A stretch of 43,487 nucleotides of DNA from Ilumatobacter sp. (GTDB lineage: Bacteria; Actinomycetota; Acidimicrobiia; Acidimicrobiales; Ilumatobacteraceae): positions 1-43,487 of the forward strand of contig JABDKP010000112.1 of assembly GCA_013002175.1 (NCBI GenBank). The letters run 5' to 3'. Both the position numbers and the translations under genes were made by a program. The stretch's first letter is position 1. The number at the start of each line of letters is the position of its first letter. The notes below the pieces were generated by a model. It saw nothing but the letters and a program-made list of their open reading frames with translations, ran no database searches and had not been told where the DNA came from. This document shows, in pieces, positions 2,123 to 29,916 of the stretch.

Positions 2123-3583
2123 ATGACGCACGCCGCGGTCGACGACGAGCACGGGGCGGGCAGGCGGACCCCGTCGCCGATCGCCCGCCACCGCCGCAAC
2201 ACCGAGCTGACGCTGGTCGTGATGGCCGCGATGATCACCGGCGCGGCGTACGCCGTCGCGGCACTCGGCACGAACGCCGAGATCCCGCCGGGCATCGTCG
2301 TCTTCGTCGGTGTCCTCCTGGCCCTGCTGCTCTGCGCGCACATCGTCGTCCGCCTCGTCGCCGGCGGTGCCGACGGCACGCTGCTGCCGCTCGCCGCGAT
2401 CCTCCACGGCGTCGGGTTCGTGATGATCACCCGCCTCGACGACCGCCTCGCCGGCCTCCAGGCGACGTGGAGCCTCGTCGCGATCGCCGCGTTCGTCCTC
2501 ACCCTGCTGTTCGTCCAACGCACCACGCTGCTCGCCCGCTACCGCTGGGTGCTGTTCCTCGCCGGCGCGTTCCTGCTGCTGCTGCCGATGGCGCCGGGCG
2601 TTGGCCGGACGATCAACGGGGCGCGGATCTGGGTCAGCGTCGGGCCGATCAACTTCCAGCCGGGTGAGTTCGCCAAGCTCGCCTTCGCGATCTTCTTCGC
2701 CGCCTATCTCGCCGACCGCCGCGAGCTGATCGCGGCCCGGACGTGGAAGGTCGGCCCGATCCACCTCCCCGAGCCGCGCTACATCGCGCCGATCTTCGTC
2801 GCCTGGGGGTTCGCCGTCGTCGTGATGGTCGGCGAACGCGACCTCGGTTCGTCGCTGCTGTTCTTCACGCTGTTCGTCGTGATGATGTGGGTCGCCACCG
2901 AACGCGTCGGGTACCTGCTGCTGGGCGCCGTGCTGTTCGGCGGGGCAGCGTGGTTCTCGTGGTCGCAGTTCACGCACGTGCAGACCCGCGTCACCAACTG
3001 GATCAATCCGTGGGACGACCCGCTCGACAAGGGCTACCAGATCATCCAGGCGCTGTACGGCCTCGCCGACGGTGGCCTGCTCGGCACCGGCCTCGGCCGC
3101 GGCAACCCGAACCAGGTACCGGAGGCGCAGAACGACTTCATCTTCGCCTCGATCGGTGAGGAGTTCGGCCTGATCGGCGCCACCGCCGTGCTGATGTCGT
3201 ACATCCTGATCGTCGGCGCCGGACTGCGCATCGCGCTCCGCACCGAGCGGACGTTCGAGAAGCTGCTCGCAACCGGCCTGACGACGATCGTCGGGGTGCA
3301 GGCGTTCATCATCATCGGCGGTGTGCTGAAGGTGATCCCGCTCACCGGCATCACGCTGCCGTTCGTCAGCTACGGCGGCTCGTCGCTGGTGTCCAACTAC
3401 ATCCTGCTCGCACTCCTGATCCGCGTCTCGGACTCCGCGGCCCGCCGCCTGGGCGAGTTGCCGGACGACCCGACGACCGGCGAGCGATGGACGGCGTGGC
3501 GTCTCTCCCGCCAGATCCGCCGGGACGAGAAGCGCGGCGAGCAGCCGCCGTCCGTCACCGGCCCGGTCGAGGTGGGCTCGTGA
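2123..3583 (+). CDS. rodA: SEDS-family peptidoglycan glycosyltransferase RodA/FtsW
   Basis: A 486-residue polytopic membrane protein of the SEDS family, which polymerises lipid II glycan chains together with a cognate class B PBP. Roughly ten or more hydrophobic segments are visible. Conserved stretches include GARIWVSVGPINFQPGEFAK, GLGRGNPNQVPEAQNDFIF and the C-terminal TGITLPFVSYGGSS. Length and position beside pbpA and pstP match the RodA paralogue of actinobacterial clusters rather than the dcw-cluster FtsW. The ATG lies 7 bases after pstP, and the TGA overlaps the GTG of pbpA by four bases, implying translational coupling with its transpeptidase partner. Confidence 0.95.
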   Translation: MTHAAVDDEHGAGRRTPSPIARHRRNTELTLVVMAAMITGAAYAVAALGTNAEIPPGIVVFVGVLLALLLCAHIVVRLVAGGADGTLLPLAAILHGVGFVMITRLDDRLAGLQATWSLVAIAAFVLTLLFVQRTTLLARYRWVLFLAGAFLLLLPMAPGVGRTINGARIWVSVGPINFQPGEFAKLAFAIFFAAYLADRRELIAARTWKVGPIHLPEPRYIAPIFVAWGFAVVVMVGERDLGSSLLFFTLFVVMMWVATERVGYLLLGAVLFGGAAWFSWSQFTHVQTRVTNWINPWDDPLDKGYQIIQALYGLADGGLLGTGLGRGNPNQVPEAQNDFIFASIGEEFGLIGATAVLMSYILIVGAGLRIALRTERTFEKLLATGLTTIVGVQAFIIIGGVLKVIPLTGITLPFVSYGGSSLVSNYILLALLIRVSDSAARRLGELPDDPTTGERWTAWRLSRQIRRDEKRGEQPPSVTGPVEVGS

Positions 3584-20956: not shown

Positions 20957-22483
20957 GTGACGACCGGTCGACGGGCACGGGGGACGAAGCGCACGCGCAG
21001 CGTCGTCGGTGATCAACCGCCGTTCCGGCAACCGAGGCGACGGTTGCCCGCGACGGAGATCGTGTCGCACGACGAACTGGAGGCGATCCACCTCGCGTCG
21101 CTGCGTGTCCTCGCCGAGACCGGAATCGACATCCTCCACCCCGAGGCGTGCCGGCTGCTCGGCGCGGCCGGAGCCCGCGTCGACGGCGAGCGGGTGCGGT
21201 TCGACCCGGAGATGGTCGCCGCGCACCTCGCGACGATCCCCGCCGAGTTCACACTGCACGGCCGGTTGCCCGAACGCGACCTGCGGATCGGCGGCGACTG
21301 GGTGGCGTACTCGTCGGTGGCGAGCGCGCCGAACTACGTCAGCCTCGACGGTGACCGCCGCACCGGCGACCGAGCGGGCTTCCAGGACTTCCTCCGCCTC
21401 GCGCAGATGCTCACGTCGATCCACACGATCGGCGGGTTCCCGGTCGAGCCGATCGACCTTCACGCCTCGATCCGCCACCTCGAAGCGGCCTACGACGCGC
21501 ACACCCTGACCGACCGGTCGTTCCACGTCTACAGCCTCGGCAAGCAGCGCAACCTCGACGCGATCGAGATGGCCCGGATCGCCCGCGGCATCGACGACGA
21601 GACCCTCGAACGCGAGCCGAGCCTGTTCTCGGTCATCAACGCCAGCTCACCGCTGCGCTACGACCACCCGATGGTCGAGGGCATCCTCCAGATGTCGGCC
21701 CGCAACCAGGTGATCATGATCACCCCGTTCACGCTCGCCGGGGCGATGGCCCCGATCACGATCGCCGGCGCCCTGGTGCAGCAGAACGCCGAGGCGCTCG
21801 CGGGCCTGGTGCTGACCCAGGTGGTGCGCCCCGGATCACCGGCGGTGTACGGCGGGTTCACGTCGAACGTCGACATGCGCACCGGCGCGCCCGCGTTCGG
21901 TACACCGGAGTACGCGAAGGCGTGTCTCGTCGGCGGCCAACTCGCCCGCCGGTACGGGCTGCCGTACCGGTCGTCGGCGGTCAGCGCATCGAATGCGGTC
22001 GACGCCCAGGCCGGCTACGAGACGACGTGGGCGCTGTGGGGGGCGATCATGGGCGGCGCCAACTTCGTGATGCACGGAGCCGGGTGGATGGAGGGCGGTC
22101 TCCACGCGAGCTACGAGAAGATGGTGATCGACGCCGACCTGCTGCACATGGTCAGCACGTTCCTCGAACCGCTCGACCTGTCCGACGACGCGCTCGCCGT
22201 CGACGCGATCGCGGGCGTCGGCCCGGCCGGCCACTTCTTCGGCGAGACGCACACGCAGTCGCGGTTCACGACCGAGTTCTACGAGCCGATGGTCAGCGAT
22301 TGGCGCAACTGGGAGACCTGGACCGAGGCCGACGCGCCGGACGCCCGGACTCGTGCCAACGCGCTCGCCCGCGACATCCTGGCCCACTACGAAAAGCCGC
22401 CGATCGACGATGCGATCGAGGCCGAACTCCGCGACTTCGTCGACCGCCGCATCGCGGAAGGTGGCGTCGAAACCGACTTCTGA
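20957..22483 (+). CDS. Trimethylamine-methyltransferase (MttB) superfamily protein, non-pyrrolysine type
   Basis: 508 residues with the MttB TIM-barrel sequence pattern: LASLRVLAETGIDILHPEA near the N-terminus, NASSPLRYDHPMVEG and ITPFTLAGAMAPITIAGALV centrally, and GAIMGGANFVMHGAGWMEGG near the end. There is no in-frame TAG, so this is not the pyrrolysine enzyme but the wider family that includes the glycine-betaine methyltransferase MtgB. Such proteins pass a methyl group from a quaternary amine to a corrinoid protein. No corrinoid-binding protein is encoded nearby. The dimethylglycine-dehydrogenase-like gene follows, supporting a betaine-type substrate (inference). A palindromic repeat abuts the stop codon. 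Confidence 0.85.
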   Translation: MTTGRRARGTKRTRSVVGDQPPFRQPRRRLPATEIVSHDELEAIHLASLRVLAETGIDILHPEACRLLGAAGARVDGERVRFDPEMVAAHLATIPAEFTLHGRLPERDLRIGGDWVAYSSVASAPNYVSLDGDRRTGDRAGFQDFLRLAQMLTSIHTIGGFPVEPIDLHASIRHLEAAYDAHTLTDRSFHVYSLGKQRNLDAIEMARIARGIDDETLEREPSLFSVINASSPLRYDHPMVEGILQMSARNQVIMITPFTLAGAMAPITIAGALVQQNAEALAGLVLTQVVRPGSPAVYGGFTSNVDMRTGAPAFGTPEYAKACLVGGQLARRYGLPYRSSAVSASNAVDAQAGYETTWALWGAIMGGANFVMHGAGWMEGGLHASYEKMVIDADLLHMVSTFLEPLDLSDDALAVDAIAGVGPAGHFFGETHTQSRFTTEFYEPMVSDWRNWETWTEADAPDARTRANALARDILAHYEKPPIDDAIEAELRDFVDRRIAEGGVETDF

Positions 22484-22508
22484 CAAAGTTGTGCCAGGCA
22501 CAACTTTG
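22484..22508. repeat. Dispersed palindromic repeat, copy 3
   Basis: Perfect 12-bp arms around a central A, starting on the base after the mttB stop. The core is GTTGTGCC-A-GGCACAAC. Identical over the core to copy 1 read from the other strand. Confidence 0.85.
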
Positions 22509-22537
22509 ACGCATCGACCACCGACCCGGAGACAGCG

Positions 22538-25036
22538 ATGAAAACACAGGCACAGGTGGTCGTCATCGGCGGCGGGGTCGTCGGCGCGTCGGTGCTGTAC
22601 CACCTCACGCTCGCCGGCTGGACCGACGTGATGATGGTCGAGCGCCGCGAGCTGACCCACGGCTCCACGTGGCACTCCGCGGGCGGCATGCACACCCTCA
22701 ACGGCGACCCGAACGTGTCCGCGCTCCAGCGGTACACCGTCGACCTGTACAAGCAGATCGAGGCCGAGTCCGGCCGGGACTGCGGCATCCACCTCACCGG
22801 CGGGCTGGTCCTCGCCGACTCGCCCGAGCGGATGGACTTCCTGCGGATGGCGCACGCCCGCGGGCGCTATCTCGGCATGGAGACCGAGTTGATCTCGCCG
22901 GCCGAAGCGCATGCAATGGTGCCGTTCCTCGACCCGCAGTACTTCGTCGGCGCGATGGTCGACCAGCACGAGGGCCACGTCGACCCGTCCGGTGTCACCC
23001 ATGCCTACGCCGAGGCGGCGAAGCAGCGCGGTGCCGAGGTGAACCGCTTCGTATGGGCCCACGACATCACCCGCGCCACCGACGGTGGCTGGGACATCCA
23101 CGTCCACGACACCCGCGAGGGCCCCGACAACCGTGGCGCCCTCGGCACGATCCACTGCGAGCACTTCGTCAACGCCGGCGGCCTGTGGGCGCGCGAGGTC
23201 GGGCGGATGACCGGGCTGGAACTGCCGGTCCTCGCGATGGAGCACATGTACCTGCTGACCGAGGCGGTGCCGCAACTCGCCGAGTGGCGCGAGCAGTCGC
23301 CGCTGCGCGGCTTCCACGTGATGGACCTCGGCGGCGAGATCTACATGCGTGAGGAGGGCGACGGGCTCCTGCTGGGCACCTACGAACGCGGCGGCGTGCC
23401 GTGGTCGCCGCAGACGACCCCGTGGGACTTCGGTGCGCAACTGCTCGCCCCGGACCTCGACCGGATCGCGGACAACCTCGAGGTCGGCTTCAAACACTTC
23501 CCGATCTTCAACGAGGTCGGCATCAAGCAGACGATCAACGGTCCGTTCACGTTCGCCCCCGACGGCAACCCGCTGATCGGGCCGGTCTGCGGACAGCCCG
23601 GCGCCTGGTTGGCGTGCGGCGTGATGGCCGGCTTGAGTCAGGGCGGCGGCGTCGGCTTGGCGATGGCCAACTGGATGACGACCGGCGACCCAGGCTTCGA
23701 CGTGTGGGCGATGGACAACGCCCGCTTCGGCGCGTGGGCGACGCCGCAGTACACGAACGAGAAGGTCCGCGAGAACTACGCCCGCAGGTTCCGGATCACC
23801 TTCCCGAACGAGGAGCTGCCGGCGGCCCGCAACCACATCACGTCGCCGATCCACGACCGCCTCGCGGCACGCAACGCGGTCTTCGGCGCGTCGTACGGCC
23901 TGGAGCATGCGCTGTGGTTCCAGCGTCCAGGCGAGGTCCCCGAGGAGACGGTGACATTCCATCGATCGAACGCGTTCGACCTCGTCGCCGAGGAGGTCGC
24001 TGCGGTCCGCAGCGGCGTCGGGATGTTCGAGACGACGATGTACGCGAAGTACGAGTTCACCGGTCCGGGCGCACGCTCGTTCCTCGACTCGATCCTCACG
24101 AACCACATCCCACCGCCCGGGCGGCTGGCGCTGTCGCCGATGCTCGACGAGCTCGGCAACCTGATCGGTGACTTCACGGTCGGCGCGCTCGACGGCGAGC
24201 GGCTGCTGGTCGTCGGTTCGGGGCCCGCGCAGCGGTTCCACGAGCGCTGGTTCCGCGAGCGGCTGTACACCGCCGGGCTCGACCGCGCCGCCGTCGACCT
24301 TCGGGTGTGCGGTCCGGAGCTGACCGGCCTGTCGATCGCCGGCCCACGCGCGCGCGACGTGCTCGCGGAACTGACCGACGTCGACGTCTCGAACGATGCG
24401 CTGCCGTTCCTCGACATTCGCGAGATGTGGGTCGGCGCGGTGCCGGTCACCCTCGGACGGATGACGTTCACCGGCGACCTCGGCTACGAGCTGTGGTGCG
24501 ACGCGGGGTATCAGCGACGGCTGTTCGACGCGTTCGTCGAAGCGGGCGAGCCGTACGGGCTGCGGCCGTTCGGGTTGCGGGCGCTCGACTCGATGCGCTT
24601 CGACAAGCTGTGGGGCGCGTGGGGGACCGAGTACCGCAACATCTACAACCCGTACGAGGCGAACATGGGTTGGATGGTCCGCCTGGACAAGGAGTTCGTC
24701 GGCCGCGACGCGGCCGCGGCGGTCGAGCGGGCAGGACCGCAACGCCGGATGGTCGGGTTCGCCATCGACCCCGGCGAGGGTGACGATGCAGCCGACTGCG
24801 TCGGCAACGAGCCGATCTGGCACCGCGCGGCGGGCGGCGAGTGGAGCGTCGTCGGCTGGATCACGTCGGGCGCCTACGCCCACCACAGTGCGCTGTCGAT
24901 CGCGCTCGGCTACGTGCCGATCGAGTTCGCCGGCGGCGACGGTGACTGGGAGATCGAGGTCGTCGGCGTGCGCCGGCACGCGACGATCCTGCCCTCGGCC
25001 CCCTTCGACCCCGCCGGCACCCGCATGCGCAGTTGA
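22538..25036 (+). CDS. FAD-dependent dimethylglycine/sarcosine dehydrogenase-GcvT fusion
   Basis: 832 residues. An N-terminal DAO flavin domain has VVVIGGGVVGASVLYHLT, and GSTWHSAGG with the His (H46) that carries covalent FAD in the dimethylglycine/sarcosine dehydrogenase family. The C-terminal half (about 420-825) is a GcvT-like folate domain with a GcvT_C end; SGVGMFETTMYAKYEFTGPG and GDLGYELWCDAGY are typical. The enzyme would oxidise an N-methyl amine and pass the C1 unit to tetrahydrofolate. ATG at 22538 follows GGAGAC at good spacing. It sits behind the MttB gene and is bracketed by palindromic repeats. Dimethylglycine, sarcosine or a related N-methyl acid is the likely substrate. Confidence 0.87.
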   Translation: MKTQAQVVVIGGGVVGASVLYHLTLAGWTDVMMVERRELTHGSTWHSAGGMHTLNGDPNVSALQRYTVDLYKQIEAESGRDCGIHLTGGLVLADSPERMDFLRMAHARGRYLGMETELISPAEAHAMVPFLDPQYFVGAMVDQHEGHVDPSGVTHAYAEAAKQRGAEVNRFVWAHDITRATDGGWDIHVHDTREGPDNRGALGTIHCEHFVNAGGLWAREVGRMTGLELPVLAMEHMYLLTEAVPQLAEWREQSPLRGFHVMDLGGEIYMREEGDGLLLGTYERGGVPWSPQTTPWDFGAQLLAPDLDRIADNLEVGFKHFPIFNEVGIKQTINGPFTFAPDGNPLIGPVCGQPGAWLACGVMAGLSQGGGVGLAMANWMTTGDPGFDVWAMDNARFGAWATPQYTNEKVRENYARRFRITFPNEELPAARNHITSPIHDRLAARNAVFGASYGLEHALWFQRPGEVPEETVTFHRSNAFDLVAEEVAAVRSGVGMFETTMYAKYEFTGPGARSFLDSILTNHIPPPGRLALSPMLDELGNLIGDFTVGALDGERLLVVGSGPAQRFHERWFRERLYTAGLDRAAVDLRVCGPELTGLSIAGPRARDVLAELTDVDVSNDALPFLDIREMWVGAVPVTLGRMTFTGDLGYELWCDAGYQRRLFDAFVEAGEPYGLRPFGLRALDSMRFDKLWGAWGTEYRNIYNPYEANMGWMVRLDKEFVGRDAAAAVERAGPQRRMVGFAIDPGEGDDAADCVGNEPIWHRAAGGEWSVVGWITSGAYAHHSALSIALGYVPIEFAGGDGDWEIEVVGVRRHATILPSAPFDPAGTRMRS

Positions 25037-25078
25037 ACCCATTGGCGTCGAGCATCGTCAACCGAGGTCGACGCGAGC

Positions 25079-25107
25079 GTCAAAGTTGTGCCTGGCACAA
25101 CTTCGAC
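25079..25107. repeat. Dispersed palindromic repeat, copy 4
   Basis: Arms around a central T at 25093 with core GTTGTGCC-T-GGCACAAC, pairing out to 25079 and 25107 with one mismatch. It lies between two converging genes, directly after the stop of the SelW-like gene. Confidence 0.85.
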
Positions 25108-25368
25108 TCAGGTGCCGTAGCGCTGGGTTCCCGCGGGGAGGAGGGGTTCGAGGGCGGTGAGGACCTCACCGTCATCGGCCTGACGGCCGGTCTCGTGCTT
25201 CGAATAGATGCGTTCGCCGTCGACGACGACGTCGAACACACCCTTGCTGCCGGTCACCAGCGTCAGTTCGTCGATCACGTGGTGGTAGTTGGCCATGATC
25301 TCGTCGGACACGCGCACGGCGTGCGGCCAGTAGTTTCAAGGCACGCAATAGGTGATGCTGATCTTCAC
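25108..25368 (-). CDS. SelW/Rdx-family selenoprotein with in-frame UGA (CxxU)
   Basis: 86 residues if the in-frame TGA at 25338-25336 (codon 11) is read as selenocysteine. The N-terminus is then VKISITYCVPUNYWPHAVRV, with C8-V-P-U11, exactly where SelW/SelT/Rdx proteins carry their redox CxxC or CxxU. The rest (DELTLVTGSKGVFDVVVDGE, then ETGRQADDGEVLTAL) is an ordinary Rdx thioredoxin-like fold. The start is fixed independently: GTG at 25368 has TAGGTT six bases upstream. A hairpin follows the UGA at SECIS-like distance. Taken as a stop, the TGA would leave a 10-residue peptide and a 69-residue remnant without its active site. A nonsense mutation of a Cys codon is the alternative. Probable role: thiol/selenol redox protein. 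Confidence 0.8.
25313..25325 (-). promoter_or_regulatory. Candidate bacterial SECIS hairpin
   Basis: In the mRNA, CGCAC-GCC-GTGCG forms a 5-bp stem whose triloop starts 16 bases after the UGA with a G as first loop base. Bacterial SECIS models need an apical loop roughly 16-37 bases downstream with a G among the first two loop positions. The stem is short and could extend in ways I cannot compute. Confidence 0.5.
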
Positions 25369-25374
25369 GGAGCC

Positions 25375-25380
25375 AACCTA
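25375..25380 (-). promoter_or_regulatory. -10 element of the SelW-like gene (leaderless)
   Basis: On the minus strand TAGGTT is followed by six bases (GGCTCC) and GTG at 25368. This places initiation upstream of the UGA and argues that the full reading frame is the real gene. Confidence 0.6.
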
Positions 25381-25403
25381 CCGGCGCAGGCGAAGACGGC
25401 CGA

Positions 25404-27176
25404 CTACCAATACTCCTCGTAGTGGATGTTGCCCGGGGCGTTGCGGCGGTCGAGCGTGAAACCTCGCTCGGACAGCAGCTGCACGACACCGACCGGTTCG
25501 GGATACACGACCTCGCCGTCGTCGCCCTCGGGCAGTCCGATCATCGCCGGGTTGCCACAGAGGAACACGTGGCTCGACCCGGGCGACAGCGGCACGCCCA
25601 TCGCCGCGAAGTCGTCGTCGCGGATCAAATCCTGGAGGTAGCGCTTCGGCACGTCCGGTTCACGCGTCGGCATCGGGAGATAGTGGTAGTTGGGATACCG
25701 CCGTTCGAGCTCGCGATGCTTGTCGGCATAGCCGAGGTCGGCCGACTTCCGCACCGTCACCGCCGACACGATCGGACCGGTGTGGCCCTTGCGCAGCAGC
25801 TCGACGACCATCCCGTTGTGCGGTGCCTCCCCGGTACCGGTCGAGAAGAAGACGACCTCCGCCGCTGGGTCCTTGACGGCGTTCAACGTGTAGCGCCCTG
25901 CGACCTTCGGGCCGAGGTAGATCCGATCGCCGACCCGCTTCAGCGCGAGGCGCGGCGTCAGGGCCGGCGTGTTGTCCTCGGTCGGTGGGACGAGCACGAT
26001 GTAGAACTCCAGCTCGCCGACGCCGTCGTCGTCGCTGAGATACCCGTACTCGTCGAACATCCGGCTGGAGATCGAGTACGAGCGGCGGATCAGCTTGTCC
26101 CATCGCTGCTCGGCGTCGGGATCGGGGGCGTCGTCGATGCGCTCCTCCCAGTGCCCGAGGCCGAGCGATGCGTACTGGCCCGGAAGGTACGACGTGTCGC
26201 CGTGATCGGGCCGCACCCGCAGCACCCACAGGTCGGAGTGGGTCGGCTCGAAGTGCGTGATCGTCGCGTTGTAGTGCTCGGCGCGCAGCTCCTCGATCGC
26301 CCCGACGTGTCGCGTCCGCCGTTCCAGCGGCGACGGCACGGGCGCCACGTCGAGCTCCGGGAAGCACGCCTGGGCGAGCGCGATGCCCACCTGCCAGCCG
26401 GGTGCGGTGGTCGCCGGCCGATCGGGGCCCGGGTCGCCGATGAACCACACCTTGCCCGAAGCGAGTGCATCGTCGGTGACGCCGACGTCGGCCGGCGTGA
26501 ACATGACCCGCGGCGGGGCGAAGAAGACGTGATCGAACTGGAGGTCGGGCGTCCGCCGGTCGCCGAAGTCCGCCATCGGGTACCCGTCGACGAGCGTGAG
26601 GTGCCGCGGTGTCGAGCGGTACAGGAGCGTCGCCTGGCGGTCGCGTTCCAGGCGGCGCAGCACGCTCGCCCCGGCCGGCGACAGCTTCGACGGGTCCATC
26701 CCGCTCGCCGCGAGCACGACGCGGTTGCCGGCGCTCGCCAGCTGGGCGGTCAGCTCGACGGCGTGATCGGACGCACCGACGACGAGCACGTCGTGGTCGT
26801 GACCGACATCGAAGCGATCGAGGTGGATCCGATCGCTCTCGGGCAGCGCGATGTCGGGCTGCCACGACCGGTCGTCGTGCCGGTCGGCGACGAGCACGGC
26901 TCGCGTGCGGTAGCTCAGCCGATTCGTGTCGACGACGAGATGCTCGCCGTGCCGCGCGACCGACGTCGCGTGCTCACCGAAGCCGATGTCGAGCTGGTTC
27001 GGCCCGACGAGGTCGGGGAACGCGACGTGATCGGACGTCTCGATGATTCGGATGCGTTCCAGGCCGGACCGCAGCGACGAAATCGCGGTCGACAGCCCGC
27101 CGGCCGACGCGCCGACGATCACCAGGTCGTACACGGCCGCGCGCACGCCGTCGCTGATCGGTCCGTCCCCTCCCAT
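25404..27176 (-). CDS. Fused flavoprotein reductase: TrxR-like module plus ferredoxin-NADP reductase module
   Basis: 590 residues. The first half (about 15-290) looks like a thioredoxin-reductase-type FAD/NAD(P)-binding module: YDLVIVGASAGGLSTA, DVLVVGASDHAVELT, and a late KVWFIGD; it has no CxxC. The second half (about 300-590) is a bacterial FNR: RRSYSISS for FAD (about 365), VVFFSTGTGEAPHNGM for the pyridine nucleotide (about 440), HVFLCGNPAM, and the C-terminal HYEEYW typical of Fpr proteins. No iron-sulfur domain is present. The ATG shares one base with the stop of the Rieske gene (TGATG), so translation is coupled and this is very likely the electron donor of that oxygenase. The double-flavin build is unusual for such a partner. 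Confidence 0.82.
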   Translation of the reverse strand: MGGDGPISDGVRAAVYDLVIVGASAGGLSTAISSLRSGLERIRIIETSDHVAFPDLVGPNQLDIGFGEHATSVARHGEHLVVDTNRLSYRTRAVLVADRHDDRSWQPDIALPESDRIHLDRFDVGHDHDVLVVGASDHAVELTAQLASAGNRVVLAASGMDPSKLSPAGASVLRRLERDRQATLLYRSTPRHLTLVDGYPMADFGDRRTPDLQFDHVFFAPPRVMFTPADVGVTDDALASGKVWFIGDPGPDRPATTAPGWQVGIALAQACFPELDVAPVPSPLERRTRHVGAIEELRAEHYNATITHFEPTHSDLWVLRVRPDHGDTSYLPGQYASLGLGHWEERIDDAPDPDAEQRWDKLIRRSYSISSRMFDEYGYLSDDDGVGELEFYIVLVPPTEDNTPALTPRLALKRVGDRIYLGPKVAGRYTLNAVKDPAAEVVFFSTGTGEAPHNGMVVELLRKGHTGPIVSAVTVRKSADLGYADKHRELERRYPNYHYLPMPTREPDVPKRYLQDLIRDDDFAAMGVPLSPGSSHVFLCGNPAMIGLPEGDDGEVVYPEPVGVVQLLSERGFTLDRRNAPGNIHYEEYW

Positions 27177-28450
27177 CAGCGCTCGACGAGTTCGGTCAGC
27201 TCGATCGTCGGCGGGTTGGGGTTGACGCCCGACCCCCAGCGGTCGGCCTCGACGCCGCTGCGATCCCCTCGCGGGACGTCCAGCTGGTCCAGCGACGCCG
27301 ACGTCATGCAGTCGGCGAGCATGTTGTGGAACCGGTGCAACGGTTCCTCGAATCGCGGCGCCAGCGGCCCGGCCGGTACCGCCCCGCGGGTCAGTCCGCG
27401 CTGGCTGCGCTGCACGATGTCGACGTCCTCGGCGTTGACCGCCACCCAGAATTCGCTGGTCGGCCCGACCGCCTCGTCGGTGGTCGCACCGGTCGCCGCG
27501 GGGAGCAGCAAGGTGCACGTCTCGCGCGTCCGGCCCGGGGCGACGGGGTCGAGCCGCATCGTCCAGATGTGATTGGGCAGCACCGAGAGCAACACGTTCG
27601 GGAAGATCGCCACGAACCGGCCGCTGACGAGGTCGGACGCGTCGAGTTCCGGCGCCGGCGGGAGCGCCAACCACTCGTCGCGGGCATCGCCGGACACCGG
27701 CGTCGTCGTCTGGCCGCAGTACATCCCCGGGCCCTGGTAGCGGTAGTGGTCCGGCACCCGCGACACCTTCGCCAGCTCCGGGTGGATCCACCGGAGGTGG
27801 TAGTACTCCTGGAAGTTCTCGCTGATCAGCTTCCAGTTCGCGTCGATGTCGATCGTCTGCTCGCTTCGGCTGACCCAGTCGTCGAGGTGGTAGCCCGCCA
27901 TCCGCTCGGGCAGGTCACCCAGCCAGTCGAGCAGCGGTGGCGTGTCGGCGGCGAGACACGCGAACAGCAGCACCCCCCACGTGTCGACGCGGACGCGGTG
28001 CAGGCCGTGGTCGCCGCGGTCGAAGTCGTCGCGGGGCACGTCCTCGAACCCCGGCGTCGCGATCAGCTCACCGTCCAGCGAGTAGCCCCAGCGGTGATAC
28101 GGGCAGCGGATCGTGTTCGCGACGTCGCAGTCGGCCTCGGCCAGTTCGGTGCCACGATGGCGACAGGAGTTGAGGAACCCGCGGAGGACTCCGTCGCTGT
28201 TGCGGGTGACGACGATCGAACGCGAACCGAGACGGCGCACCAGCATCCGGCCGGGCCCCGCGATCTCGTCGGCGACCCCGATGCACACCCAGGCCCGATC
28301 GAAGACGTGTTGCTGCTCGACGTCGAAGAACTCCGCACCCGCATAGGCGGTCGGGTCGAGGCCGGTCGCCGACGTCAGCGGACGCCGGGTGCCCGTCCAC
28401 TGGCGTGCGGCGGTCCAGTCGACCTCGCCCTGCTCCACCCGACTCGACAT
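27176..28450 (-). CDS. Rieske non-heme iron oxygenase alpha subunit (GbcA/carnitine-type demethylase-like)
   Basis: 424 residues. The Rieske [2Fe-2S] ligands are in NSCRHRGTEL (C96, H98) and RCPYHRWGYS (C116, H119). The mononuclear iron site is NFQEYYHLRWIHPEL (H218, H223), with the carboxylate probably in NAEDVDIVQ (near residue 340). The family includes glycine-betaine monooxygenase, choline monooxygenase and other quaternary-amine demethylases. With a dimethylglycine-dehydrogenase homologue and MttB nearby, a quaternary ammonium substrate is likely (inference). ATG at 28450 is chosen over GTG 28453 because CAGCGT lies six bases upstream. The downstream reductase is translationally coupled. 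Confidence 0.85.
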   Translation of the reverse strand: MSSRVEQGEVDWTAARQWTGTRRPLTSATGLDPTAYAGAEFFDVEQQHVFDRAWVCIGVADEIAGPGRMLVRRLGSRSIVVTRNSDGVLRGFLNSCRHRGTELAEADCDVANTIRCPYHRWGYSLDGELIATPGFEDVPRDDFDRGDHGLHRVRVDTWGVLLFACLAADTPPLLDWLGDLPERMAGYHLDDWVSRSEQTIDIDANWKLISENFQEYYHLRWIHPELAKVSRVPDHYRYQGPGMYCGQTTTPVSGDARDEWLALPPAPELDASDLVSGRFVAIFPNVLLSVLPNHIWTMRLDPVAPGRTRETCTLLLPAATGATTDEAVGPTSEFWVAVNAEDVDIVQRSQRGLTRGAVPAGPLAPRFEEPLHRFHNMLADCMTSASLDQLDVPRGDRSGVEADRWGSGVNPNPPTIELTELVER

Positions 28451-28532
28451 CACGCCACGCTGTCAGCCGCACGATGCCGATGTCAAACACGCGGGCCGCG
28501 GCCGAGCTGCCATGATGACGCCAGACACCACC

Positions 28533-28569
28533 GGTGTTCCATCTGGTGCCAGGCACCAGCTGGAACACC
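28533..28569. repeat. Variant palindrome sharing the repeat core
   Basis: Arms of 18 bp with one mismatch around a central A at 28551; the inner core is GGTGCC-A-GGCACC and the outer arm begins GGTGTTCC. It shares GTGCCAGGCAC with the other repeats but has different arms. It lies between the divergent Rieske and dddP-like genes, in the leader of the latter. Confidence 0.8.
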
Positions 28570-28596
28570 TCGCCCAGACGTCATCGGGAGACCGCA

Positions 28597-29916
28597 ATGC
28601 CGGGAAAGATCGCTGCGTCGCTGCGGCAGGCAGCGCACGAGGTCCGCCATGCGGCCGGCGACGGCCACCATCTCGTGATCGGCCCGGGGCACCCGGCGAT
28701 CGACGAGTGGGCGGCGGCGGGCCTCACGCTGCCCGATCTGGCGGCGATGCGCCGCTCCCGCGTCGACCGGATCACCGGCCAGCTCGCGGCGCACGGCTAC
28801 GACGGGATCATCCTGATGGACCCGATGAACATCCGCTACGCCACCGACTCGACGAACATGCAGGTCTGGGTGATGCACAACGGCGCCCGGTATGCCTGGG
28901 TCGGCGCGGACGGCCACGTGATCCTGTGGGACTACTACAACTGCGAGTTCCTCGCCGCGCACAGCGAAGTCGTCGACGAGGTGCGGCCTGCGATCGGCTC
29001 GACGTACTTCCTCGCCGGGCCACGCCACCGCGAGCAGGCGGAGCGTTGGGCCGACGAGCTGCTCGCGGTGATTCGCAGCCGCGCCGGCCGGGCGCCGCGG
29101 ATCGCGATCGACCAGTGCCACCACACCGGGTATTCACTGCTCGAAGCGGCGGGCGTCGAGCTGGGCTTCGGGCAGGAGGTGATGGAGCTCGCCCGGTCGA
29201 TCAAGGGGCCCGACGAGATCCTCGCGATGCGCTGCGCGGTCCACGCCTGCGAGACGACGATCGACGAGATGTACGCCGCGATGTCACCGGGGATGACCGA
29301 GCGGGAGCTGTGGTCGATGCTGCATGCGGGCAACATCCGTCGGGCCGGCGAGTGGATCGAGACCCAGATCATCGCGTCCGGCCCGCGTACGAACCCGTGG
29401 ATGCAGGAAGCATCGAGCCGGGTCATCGAGAACGGCGACATCGTCGCCTACGACACCGATCTGGTCGGGGCGTACGGGATGATGGTCGACATCAGCCGCA
29501 CCTGGATCTGCGGCGAGGGTCGCGGCCCCGGTGGCGAGCCGACCGCCGCCCAACGCCATGTGCACGACCTCGCGTGCGAGCAGCTCGACCGCAACCTGCA
29601 GCTGCTGACCCCGGGGCGCAGCTACCGGGAGTTGACGTTCGACTCGTGGCATCCGCCGACCGATGCGTACCGCCACTACTCGTGCCTGTACCACGGCGTC
29701 GGCCAGTGCGACGAGTACCCGGAGATCTACTTCCCGGAGATCTGGGACGAGTGGGGCTACGACGGCGTGCTGGAGGAGGGCATGGTGCTGACCGTCGAGG
29801 CGTTCGTCGGTTCGATGCGAGGCGGCGAGGGGATCAAGCTGGAGAACCAGGTGCTCGTCACCGAGCACGGCCCCGAGCTGCTGACGGCCAACTCGTTGGA
29901 CCTGCAGCGCGGCTGA
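28597..29916 (+). CDS. dddP: M24-fold enzyme, probable DMSP lyase DddP
   Basis: 439 residues with the pita-bread (creatinase/M24) fold. Metal ligands are DTD (D286, D288), D298 in VDISRTW, H366 in YHGVG, E401 in VEAFVG and E416 in KLENQ. DddP, as I recall it, uses D295, D297, D307, H371, E406 and E421 with catalytic D377; the gaps (2, 10, 35, 15) are the same here, and D372 sits six residues after the His just as D377 does. Stretches such as LDPMNIRYATDSTNMQVW-like wording and GEWIETQIIASGPRTNPW also match DddP as I remember it. DddP cleaves DMSP to dimethyl sulfide and acrylate in the cytoplasm. ATG at 28597 follows GGGAG; an upstream in-frame start would translate the palindrome. Another creatinase-type hydrolase is the alternative. 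Confidence 0.75.
   Translation: MPGKIAASLRQAAHEVRHAAGDGHHLVIGPGHPAIDEWAAAGLTLPDLAAMRRSRVDRITGQLAAHGYDGIILMDPMNIRYATDSTNMQVWVMHNGARYAWVGADGHVILWDYYNCEFLAAHSEVVDEVRPAIGSTYFLAGPRHREQAERWADELLAVIRSRAGRAPRIAIDQCHHTGYSLLEAAGVELGFGQEVMELARSIKGPDEILAMRCAVHACETTIDEMYAAMSPGMTERELWSMLHAGNIRRAGEWIETQIIASGPRTNPWMQEASSRVIENGDIVAYDTDLVGAYGMMVDISRTWICGEGRGPGGEPTAAQRHVHDLACEQLDRNLQLLTPGRSYRELTFDSWHPPTDAYRHYSCLYHGVGQCDEYPEIYFPEIWDEWGYDGVLEEGMVLTVEAFVGSMRGGEGIKLENQVLVTEHGPELLTANSLDLQRG

Follow-up and report, generated by a model that had tools for sequence, protein, structure and literature searches.

A SelW-like gene with an in-frame UGA

The window (the whole analyzed stretch of 43,487 nt from an Ilumatobacter sp. 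contig) carries on its minus strand what is almost certainly a genuine SelW-like selenoprotein gene, with a probable leaderless start, a UGA at which SelB and a downstream hairpin would direct the insertion of selenocysteine, and an Rdx-family product with a CxxU redox site. Such a gene had been proposed in an earlier note made from the letters of the DNA. That observation is correct in substance, and its interpretation is supported here except for the exact hairpin. The features of the gene outside the hairpin are the following:

25108..25368, minus strand: selW-like (Rdx family) selenoprotein gene, with GTG start, 86 codons including one predicted Sec-UGA, and TGA stop
25375..25380, minus strand: TAGGTT, a -10-like box with six bases between it and the GTG, matching the TANNNT pattern of relatives
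25345..25347, minus strand: TGC codon of Cys8, the first redox residue in CVPU
25336..25338, minus strand: in-frame TGA, residue 11, predicted to be read as selenocysteine (conserved TGA in relatives, Cys in non-TGA homologs)
25108..25317, minus strand: truncated ORF from mechanical calling, 69 aa, GTG start

The frame runs from GTG 25368 through VKISITYCVP to the TGA at 25338-25336, and on through NYWPHAVRV to RYGT and the terminal TGA at 25110-25108, the redox-site TGA being its single internal stop. This frame had been described and assigned to Rdx/SelW before, and the read-through protein indeed matches Pfam Rdx with E 1.3e-16 (61.0 bits, cut-off 22.6). It also matches TIGR02174 (44.4 bits, cut-off 34.2), and scores 79.7 bits with the narrower model NF041051, which is below the cut-off of 88.

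The AlphaFold2 model of the protein, built from 20 aligned sequences, has a mean pLDDT of 95.9 and a pTM of 0.86, and the CVPU site follows strand 2-8 in it. Foldseek comparison of the model with the PDB retrieves 22 chains at E <= 0.001 from seven entries (2obk, 2fa8, 2p0g, 3dex, 2oka, 2ojl, 2ljk), and the identical seven entries are found by a sequence-profile search of the PDB. In particular, 3dex from Streptomyces, 2fa8 from Agrobacterium and 2obk from Pseudomonas share the fold with the window protein (query TM 0.77-0.87), and their profile matches have E-values of 3.1e-11, 8.3e-10 and 6.2e-6, respectively. 3dex and 2fa8 have Cys in the second redox position (YCTQC), whereas the window gene has UGA there. 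Mouse selenoprotein W (2npb) is a fold match of rank 23 (E 6.1e-3, query TM 0.68), with 18% identity to the window protein over the match. With its profile match, its predicted thioredoxin-like Rdx fold and its CxxU redox site, the protein is a member of the Rdx/SelW family.

As the earlier note had expected, mechanical calling yields a truncated protein, the 69-aa ORF without the redox site. Here a UGA called as a stop plainly costs a selenoprotein its active site, in a host group of mostly uncultured bacteria. A further ORF, an antisense shadow of 129 aa at 25033-25422 on the plus strand, covers the selW gene; comparable antisense ORFs overlie SelW in relatives and could mislead gene callers.

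SelW-like selenoproteins with CxxU have long been known, as had also been recognized, and the window gene adds a member. The passages on this family in PMC1794560 (2006) describe 10 SelW-like selenoproteins, one of them in Symbiobacterium, and give very few or no Cys homologs in Sec-using organisms. A table of the Global Ocean Sampling data (the relevant part of PMC2398784) has 427 Sec and 56 Cys forms for SelW-like (CxxU) proteins, which is the highest count in that table. The window gene and the known bacterial SelW-like selenoproteins (Pfam Rdx) have in common the family, the CxxU site, the UGA at the second redox position and a downstream SECIS, while the host differs, being here of the Acidimicrobiia type. 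The literature search, covering titles and abstract openings, found no selenoprotein paper for Acidimicrobi-.

Start codon and -10 box

GTG 25368 is the sole in-frame start codon between the upstream stop and the UGA, and the same position carries a start codon in relatives (ATG in L019 and L040, GTG in L018). The argument made before from this start and its -10 box is borne out by the relatives. Of the 86 SelW genes of the order (the window gene included), 62 show TANNNT at a distance of 5-8 nt from a downstream in-frame start, most frequently at 6 nt (34 genes) and 7 nt (22 genes). As background, 102 of the 3646 ATG and GTG triplets in these loci are so preceded, each gene having about 1.6 candidate starts. 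Actinobacteria commonly have leaderless mRNAs. Given the frequency of TANNNT over this background, a leaderless start fits the SelW group, and the mRNA of the window gene would start at or beside the GTG.

Another reading accepts the selenoprotein and gives its mRNA a normal leader with a ribosome site instead of a leaderless GTG. Some genes of the group may be of this type: 24 of the 86 have no TANNNT at the right distance, and in 12 of these 24 a ribosome-site-like motif (GGAG, GAGG or AGGA) precedes the start. In the window, however, none of these three motifs was found before the GTG, the TAGGTT lies at 6 nt as in the common pattern, and the only in-frame start upstream of the UGA is the very codon at which the three relatives named above start. 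A normal leader is therefore improbable here, and the leaderless start is preferred.

The UGA column in relatives

When 298 genomes from the order (the window's own included) were searched with the protein and with the family model, each search gave 86 SelW matches in 85 genomes; those of the protein search are spread over 43 of 171 genera. Each match contains one or two internal TGAs. All 86 loci could be read at the second redox column, and all have TGA there. A scan of named genomes, several of which seem to coincide with genomes of the order set, confirmed 122 relatives, and the best 80 of these all have TGA at the redox column (78 CxxU, 2 UxxU). These 80 are mostly labeled Acidimicrobiales, Acidimicrobiia, Acidimicrobiaceae or Actinomycetota, and a few Ilumatobacter, Microthrix, Anaerolineae or Acidobacteria.

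The 396 genomes of the phylum that were searched include 56 with SelW matches; of these 57 matches, 40 contain TGA and 17 lack it. Among the latter, 16 (from 15 genomes) could be read, and all 16 have Cys exactly at the U column; the remaining match (G555) was left out because it does not cover the redox site. The Sec and Cys forms at this column are a classical Sec/Cys pair. Whether homologs hold Cys or Sec here had been raised before as a check, and the answer depends on distance: no Cys form turned up in either search of the 298 order genomes, where SelW was found in the Sec form only, while the non-TGA homologs further out in the phylum carry Cys.

A diverged group of SelW genes was observed in the relatives (L092-L101), mostly with EFCVPUNY or EFCVPUDY at the redox site and with a different sequence following the UGA (GCCGTCGGTCTG in most).

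SECIS hairpin

Two overlapping hairpins can be drawn downstream of the UGA, and they differ in conservation:

25308..25324, minus strand: conserved SECIS hairpin GCACGC-CGUGC-GCGUGU (minimum-energy fold, pair counts, near-fixed codons)
25313..25325, minus strand: hairpin CGCAC-GCC-GTGCG of the earlier note, present, pairing not conserved

The second hairpin exists as described, its loop starting at the 16th base after the TGA with a G. Its pairing, however, is no better than in shuffled alignments (69.8% of cells paired against a shuffled mean of 70.1%), and it is rejected as the conserved SECIS. The conserved helix (alignment columns 16-20 paired with 26-30) is offset from it by two bases, and 17 nt separate the UGA from its loop, CGUGC. 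This helix is paired in 88.8% of cells, compared with 82.2% in shuffles; 34 cells have both sides changed, compared with 14.4 in shuffles; and it scores above every version of itself slid along the alignment. Two of the five covariation measures are weak, both-sides-changed pairs being matched by 20 of 500 shuffles and pair types by 106 of 500. The counts are from 82 distinct rows representing the 86 genes, with the diverged L092-L101 included. RNAalifold picks four of the five pairs of the same helix.

The helix is also a part of the minimum-energy fold of the window strand (-12.3 kcal/mol), an energy that is not special for this GC-rich DNA (z 0.40, 127 of 200 shuffles being equally stable). 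According to the part of PMC13188914 that deals with bSECIS rules, these comprise a loop of 3-9 nt with G in the first two bases, located 16-37 nt after the UGA, an upper stem of 4-16 bp and an MFE <= -7.5. The window hairpin conforms to them with its loop, spacing and energy, and so do 80 of the 86 genes (6 do not), as well as 137 of the 255 control windows taken from these genes.

The codons at positions 6-8 past the UGA are nearly fixed: GCC accounts for 70 of 75 Ala, GTG for 74 of 76 Val and AGC for 57 of 58 Ser codons (76 main-group rows, positions -8 to +39; L092-L101 left out as diverged). In other columns the commonest codon makes up 33-63% for Leu, Val and Gly, and 47-80% for Thr; some two-fold columns are equally fixed, such as Asn (AAC 46 of 46) and His (CAC 67 of 73). 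Since the energy is unremarkable and the bSECIS rules are loose, the assignment of the SECIS rests on the covariation and the codon constraint.

The position of the element is a difference from mouse SelW. SECIS elements of eukaryotes are in the 3'UTR, as given in the pertinent text of PMC13188914; the hairpin of the window gene is downstream of the UGA within the gene.

Selenocysteine machinery and the reading of the UGA

The genome of the window is a draft (3.33 Mb, 191 contigs, 89% complete), and all four machinery genes that the earlier note had named for a search are present in it. Of the two findings that the note would have taken as refuting, a genome lacking this machinery and close relatives with a Cys codon in place of the UGA, neither was made. 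selA (397 bits, C21:1891-3039) and selB (266.9 bits) are over their cut-offs and on the same contig, the selB ORF starting at 3051 and overlapping the last four bases of the selA ORF; selB carries the SelB-wing_3 domain. The tRNA-Sec (selC) match has 65.1 bits against a gathering score of 47 and is called tRNA-SeC with anticodon tca (UCA). selD (376 bits, over cut-off) has one in-frame TGA, and the SelD of this genome is probably itself a selenoprotein:

L015:2392-2394 (G000:C113), minus strand: in-frame TGA of selD, HGAG-U-GCKL

SelW goes together with selA in the order. At E <= 0.001, selA is detected in 185 of the 298 genomes (175 of these matches being over the cut-off), namely in 83 of the 85 genomes with a SelW gene vs 102 of the 213 without (Fisher p 1.1e-18). 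The two SelW genomes without a detected selA, G170 and G197, are fragmented drafts (some 520 and 630 contigs), and a repeat search found none in them either. Elsewhere in the phylum, 34 TGA-bearing genomes were tested: 30 have a selA match over the cut-off, and none was detected in the other 4. Of the 16 genomes whose SelW matches lack TGA, 5 have selA over the cut-off.

These data bear on two readings without selenocysteine. The gene could be a Cys-type Rdx gene inactivated by a nonsense mutation, with translation restricted to the 69-aa downstream fragment; under translation table 11 the TGA does stop the frame, and the downstream ORF does exist. The same TGA, however, is found in every one of the order genes and of the best 80 relatives, with matches across 43 of the 171 genera, the window frame has no further stop before its end, the codons after the UGA are constrained, and selA co-occurs. 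The pseudogene reading is thereby refuted and hardly credible. Least credible of all is a changed code, in which UGA would be a sense codon for Trp or Gly throughout the genome: it would explain an in-frame UGA that has to be read, but is rejected since TGA is a common stop here, since the 16 non-TGA homologs read carry Cys and not Trp or Gly, and since the best tRNA-Sec match has the tca anticodon. Seven other genes or ORFs of the window were checked for TGA: it ends six of them, the seventh ending with TAG, and is internal in none; it also ends SelW itself, so that UGA is an ordinary stop. Pfam domains were found in five of the seven, the other two being short ORFs.

Proposed mechanism

Decoding of the UGA as selenocysteine is thus the preferred reading. 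Judging from the anatomy of the gene and the established pathway, SelA would make Sec-tRNA(UCA) using selenophosphate from SelD, and SelB with this tRNA would bind the hairpin, which begins 11 bases after the UGA, the ribosome then inserting selenocysteine. This would yield a thioredoxin-like Rdx protein of 86 residues with CxxU as its center, most likely a small thiol/selenol oxidoreductase. By analogy with the family, the selenolate at residue 11 may attack peroxides or mixed disulfides, while Cys8 would resolve the selenylsulfide. Functions of such SelW-like selenoproteins are described as largely uncharacterized in the section of PMC13188914 that concerns them.

Probable UxxU variants of SelW in one genus

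In genus g43 (family f35, same order) a SelW gene is present in 20 of 22 genomes. Two TGAs are found in 16 of the 20 genes (all UVPU) and one in the other 4 (all CVPU). In the UxxU genes the two TGAs are nine bases apart and are followed by one hairpin, whose loop is 17 nt after the second UGA and 26 nt after the first; when the UxxU rows are folded, the hairpin is retained with one bulge. An additional Cys, in a loop some 50 residues further on, is shared by the 16 UxxU proteins and missing from the 4 CxxU sisters of g43; some CxxU genes outside g43 also have this Cys, e.g. L075 and L077. A selA match was found in all 7 UxxU genomes tested, of 16. Over the whole set of loci, the UVPU form is at:

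L052, L054, L060, L065, L066, L079, L081, L183, L185-L191, L193, L194, L196-L200, L202, L170, L180: UVPU loci (several are the same gene fetched twice)

On the DNA tree UxxU needs one change, and the group has 83% SH-aLRT support from a short search. For this tree the redox codons were masked and 76 distinct rows used, leaving out L092-L101, the insertion rows L077, L083, L084, L086, L089 and L090, as well as L197-L199 and rows that were too short. It is fairly likely that one genus turned the CxxU center of SelW into UxxU, with one hairpin for two UGAs. If both UGAs are read, a single SECIS would direct two Sec insertions, and the product would be a diselenide SelW. In the relevant text of PMC13188914 and PMC9312934, SelW-like proteins are given as CxxU, and UxxU is given for other families. 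A UxxU SelW was not found in the literature search, no title or abstract opening among the matches listed being on such a protein. With these relatives one could test how a single bacterial SECIS serves two UGAs close together, and in what way a diselenide extends the chemistry of SelW.

Gene neighborhood

In the window, SelW is surrounded (20957-29916) by genes for an MttB-like methyltransferase, a DAO/GCV_T oxidoreductase, a Rieske oxygenase with a reductase, and an M24 peptidase, which together look like a methylated-amine breakdown cluster. This neighborhood was not found to be conserved: tblastn of three window neighbors against 109 loci (sets of 29 and 80, with some same genomes, the own locus left out) gave one match only, a Rieske protein in L112 (34% identity, E 4.2e-30), and no functional partner is claimed.

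Clustering of the flanking ORFs in these 109 loci shows that some neighbors are common to parts of the set, among them ORFs that we take to be rubrerythrin-like and RNA methyltransferase-like. The largest cluster consists at least partly of antisense shadow ORFs of SelW. The rubrerythrin-like ORF is near SelW in 19 of the 109 clustered loci, some from the same genomes (e.g. L132, near 1865-2330), and such a neighbor would fit an oxidative-stress role of SelW.
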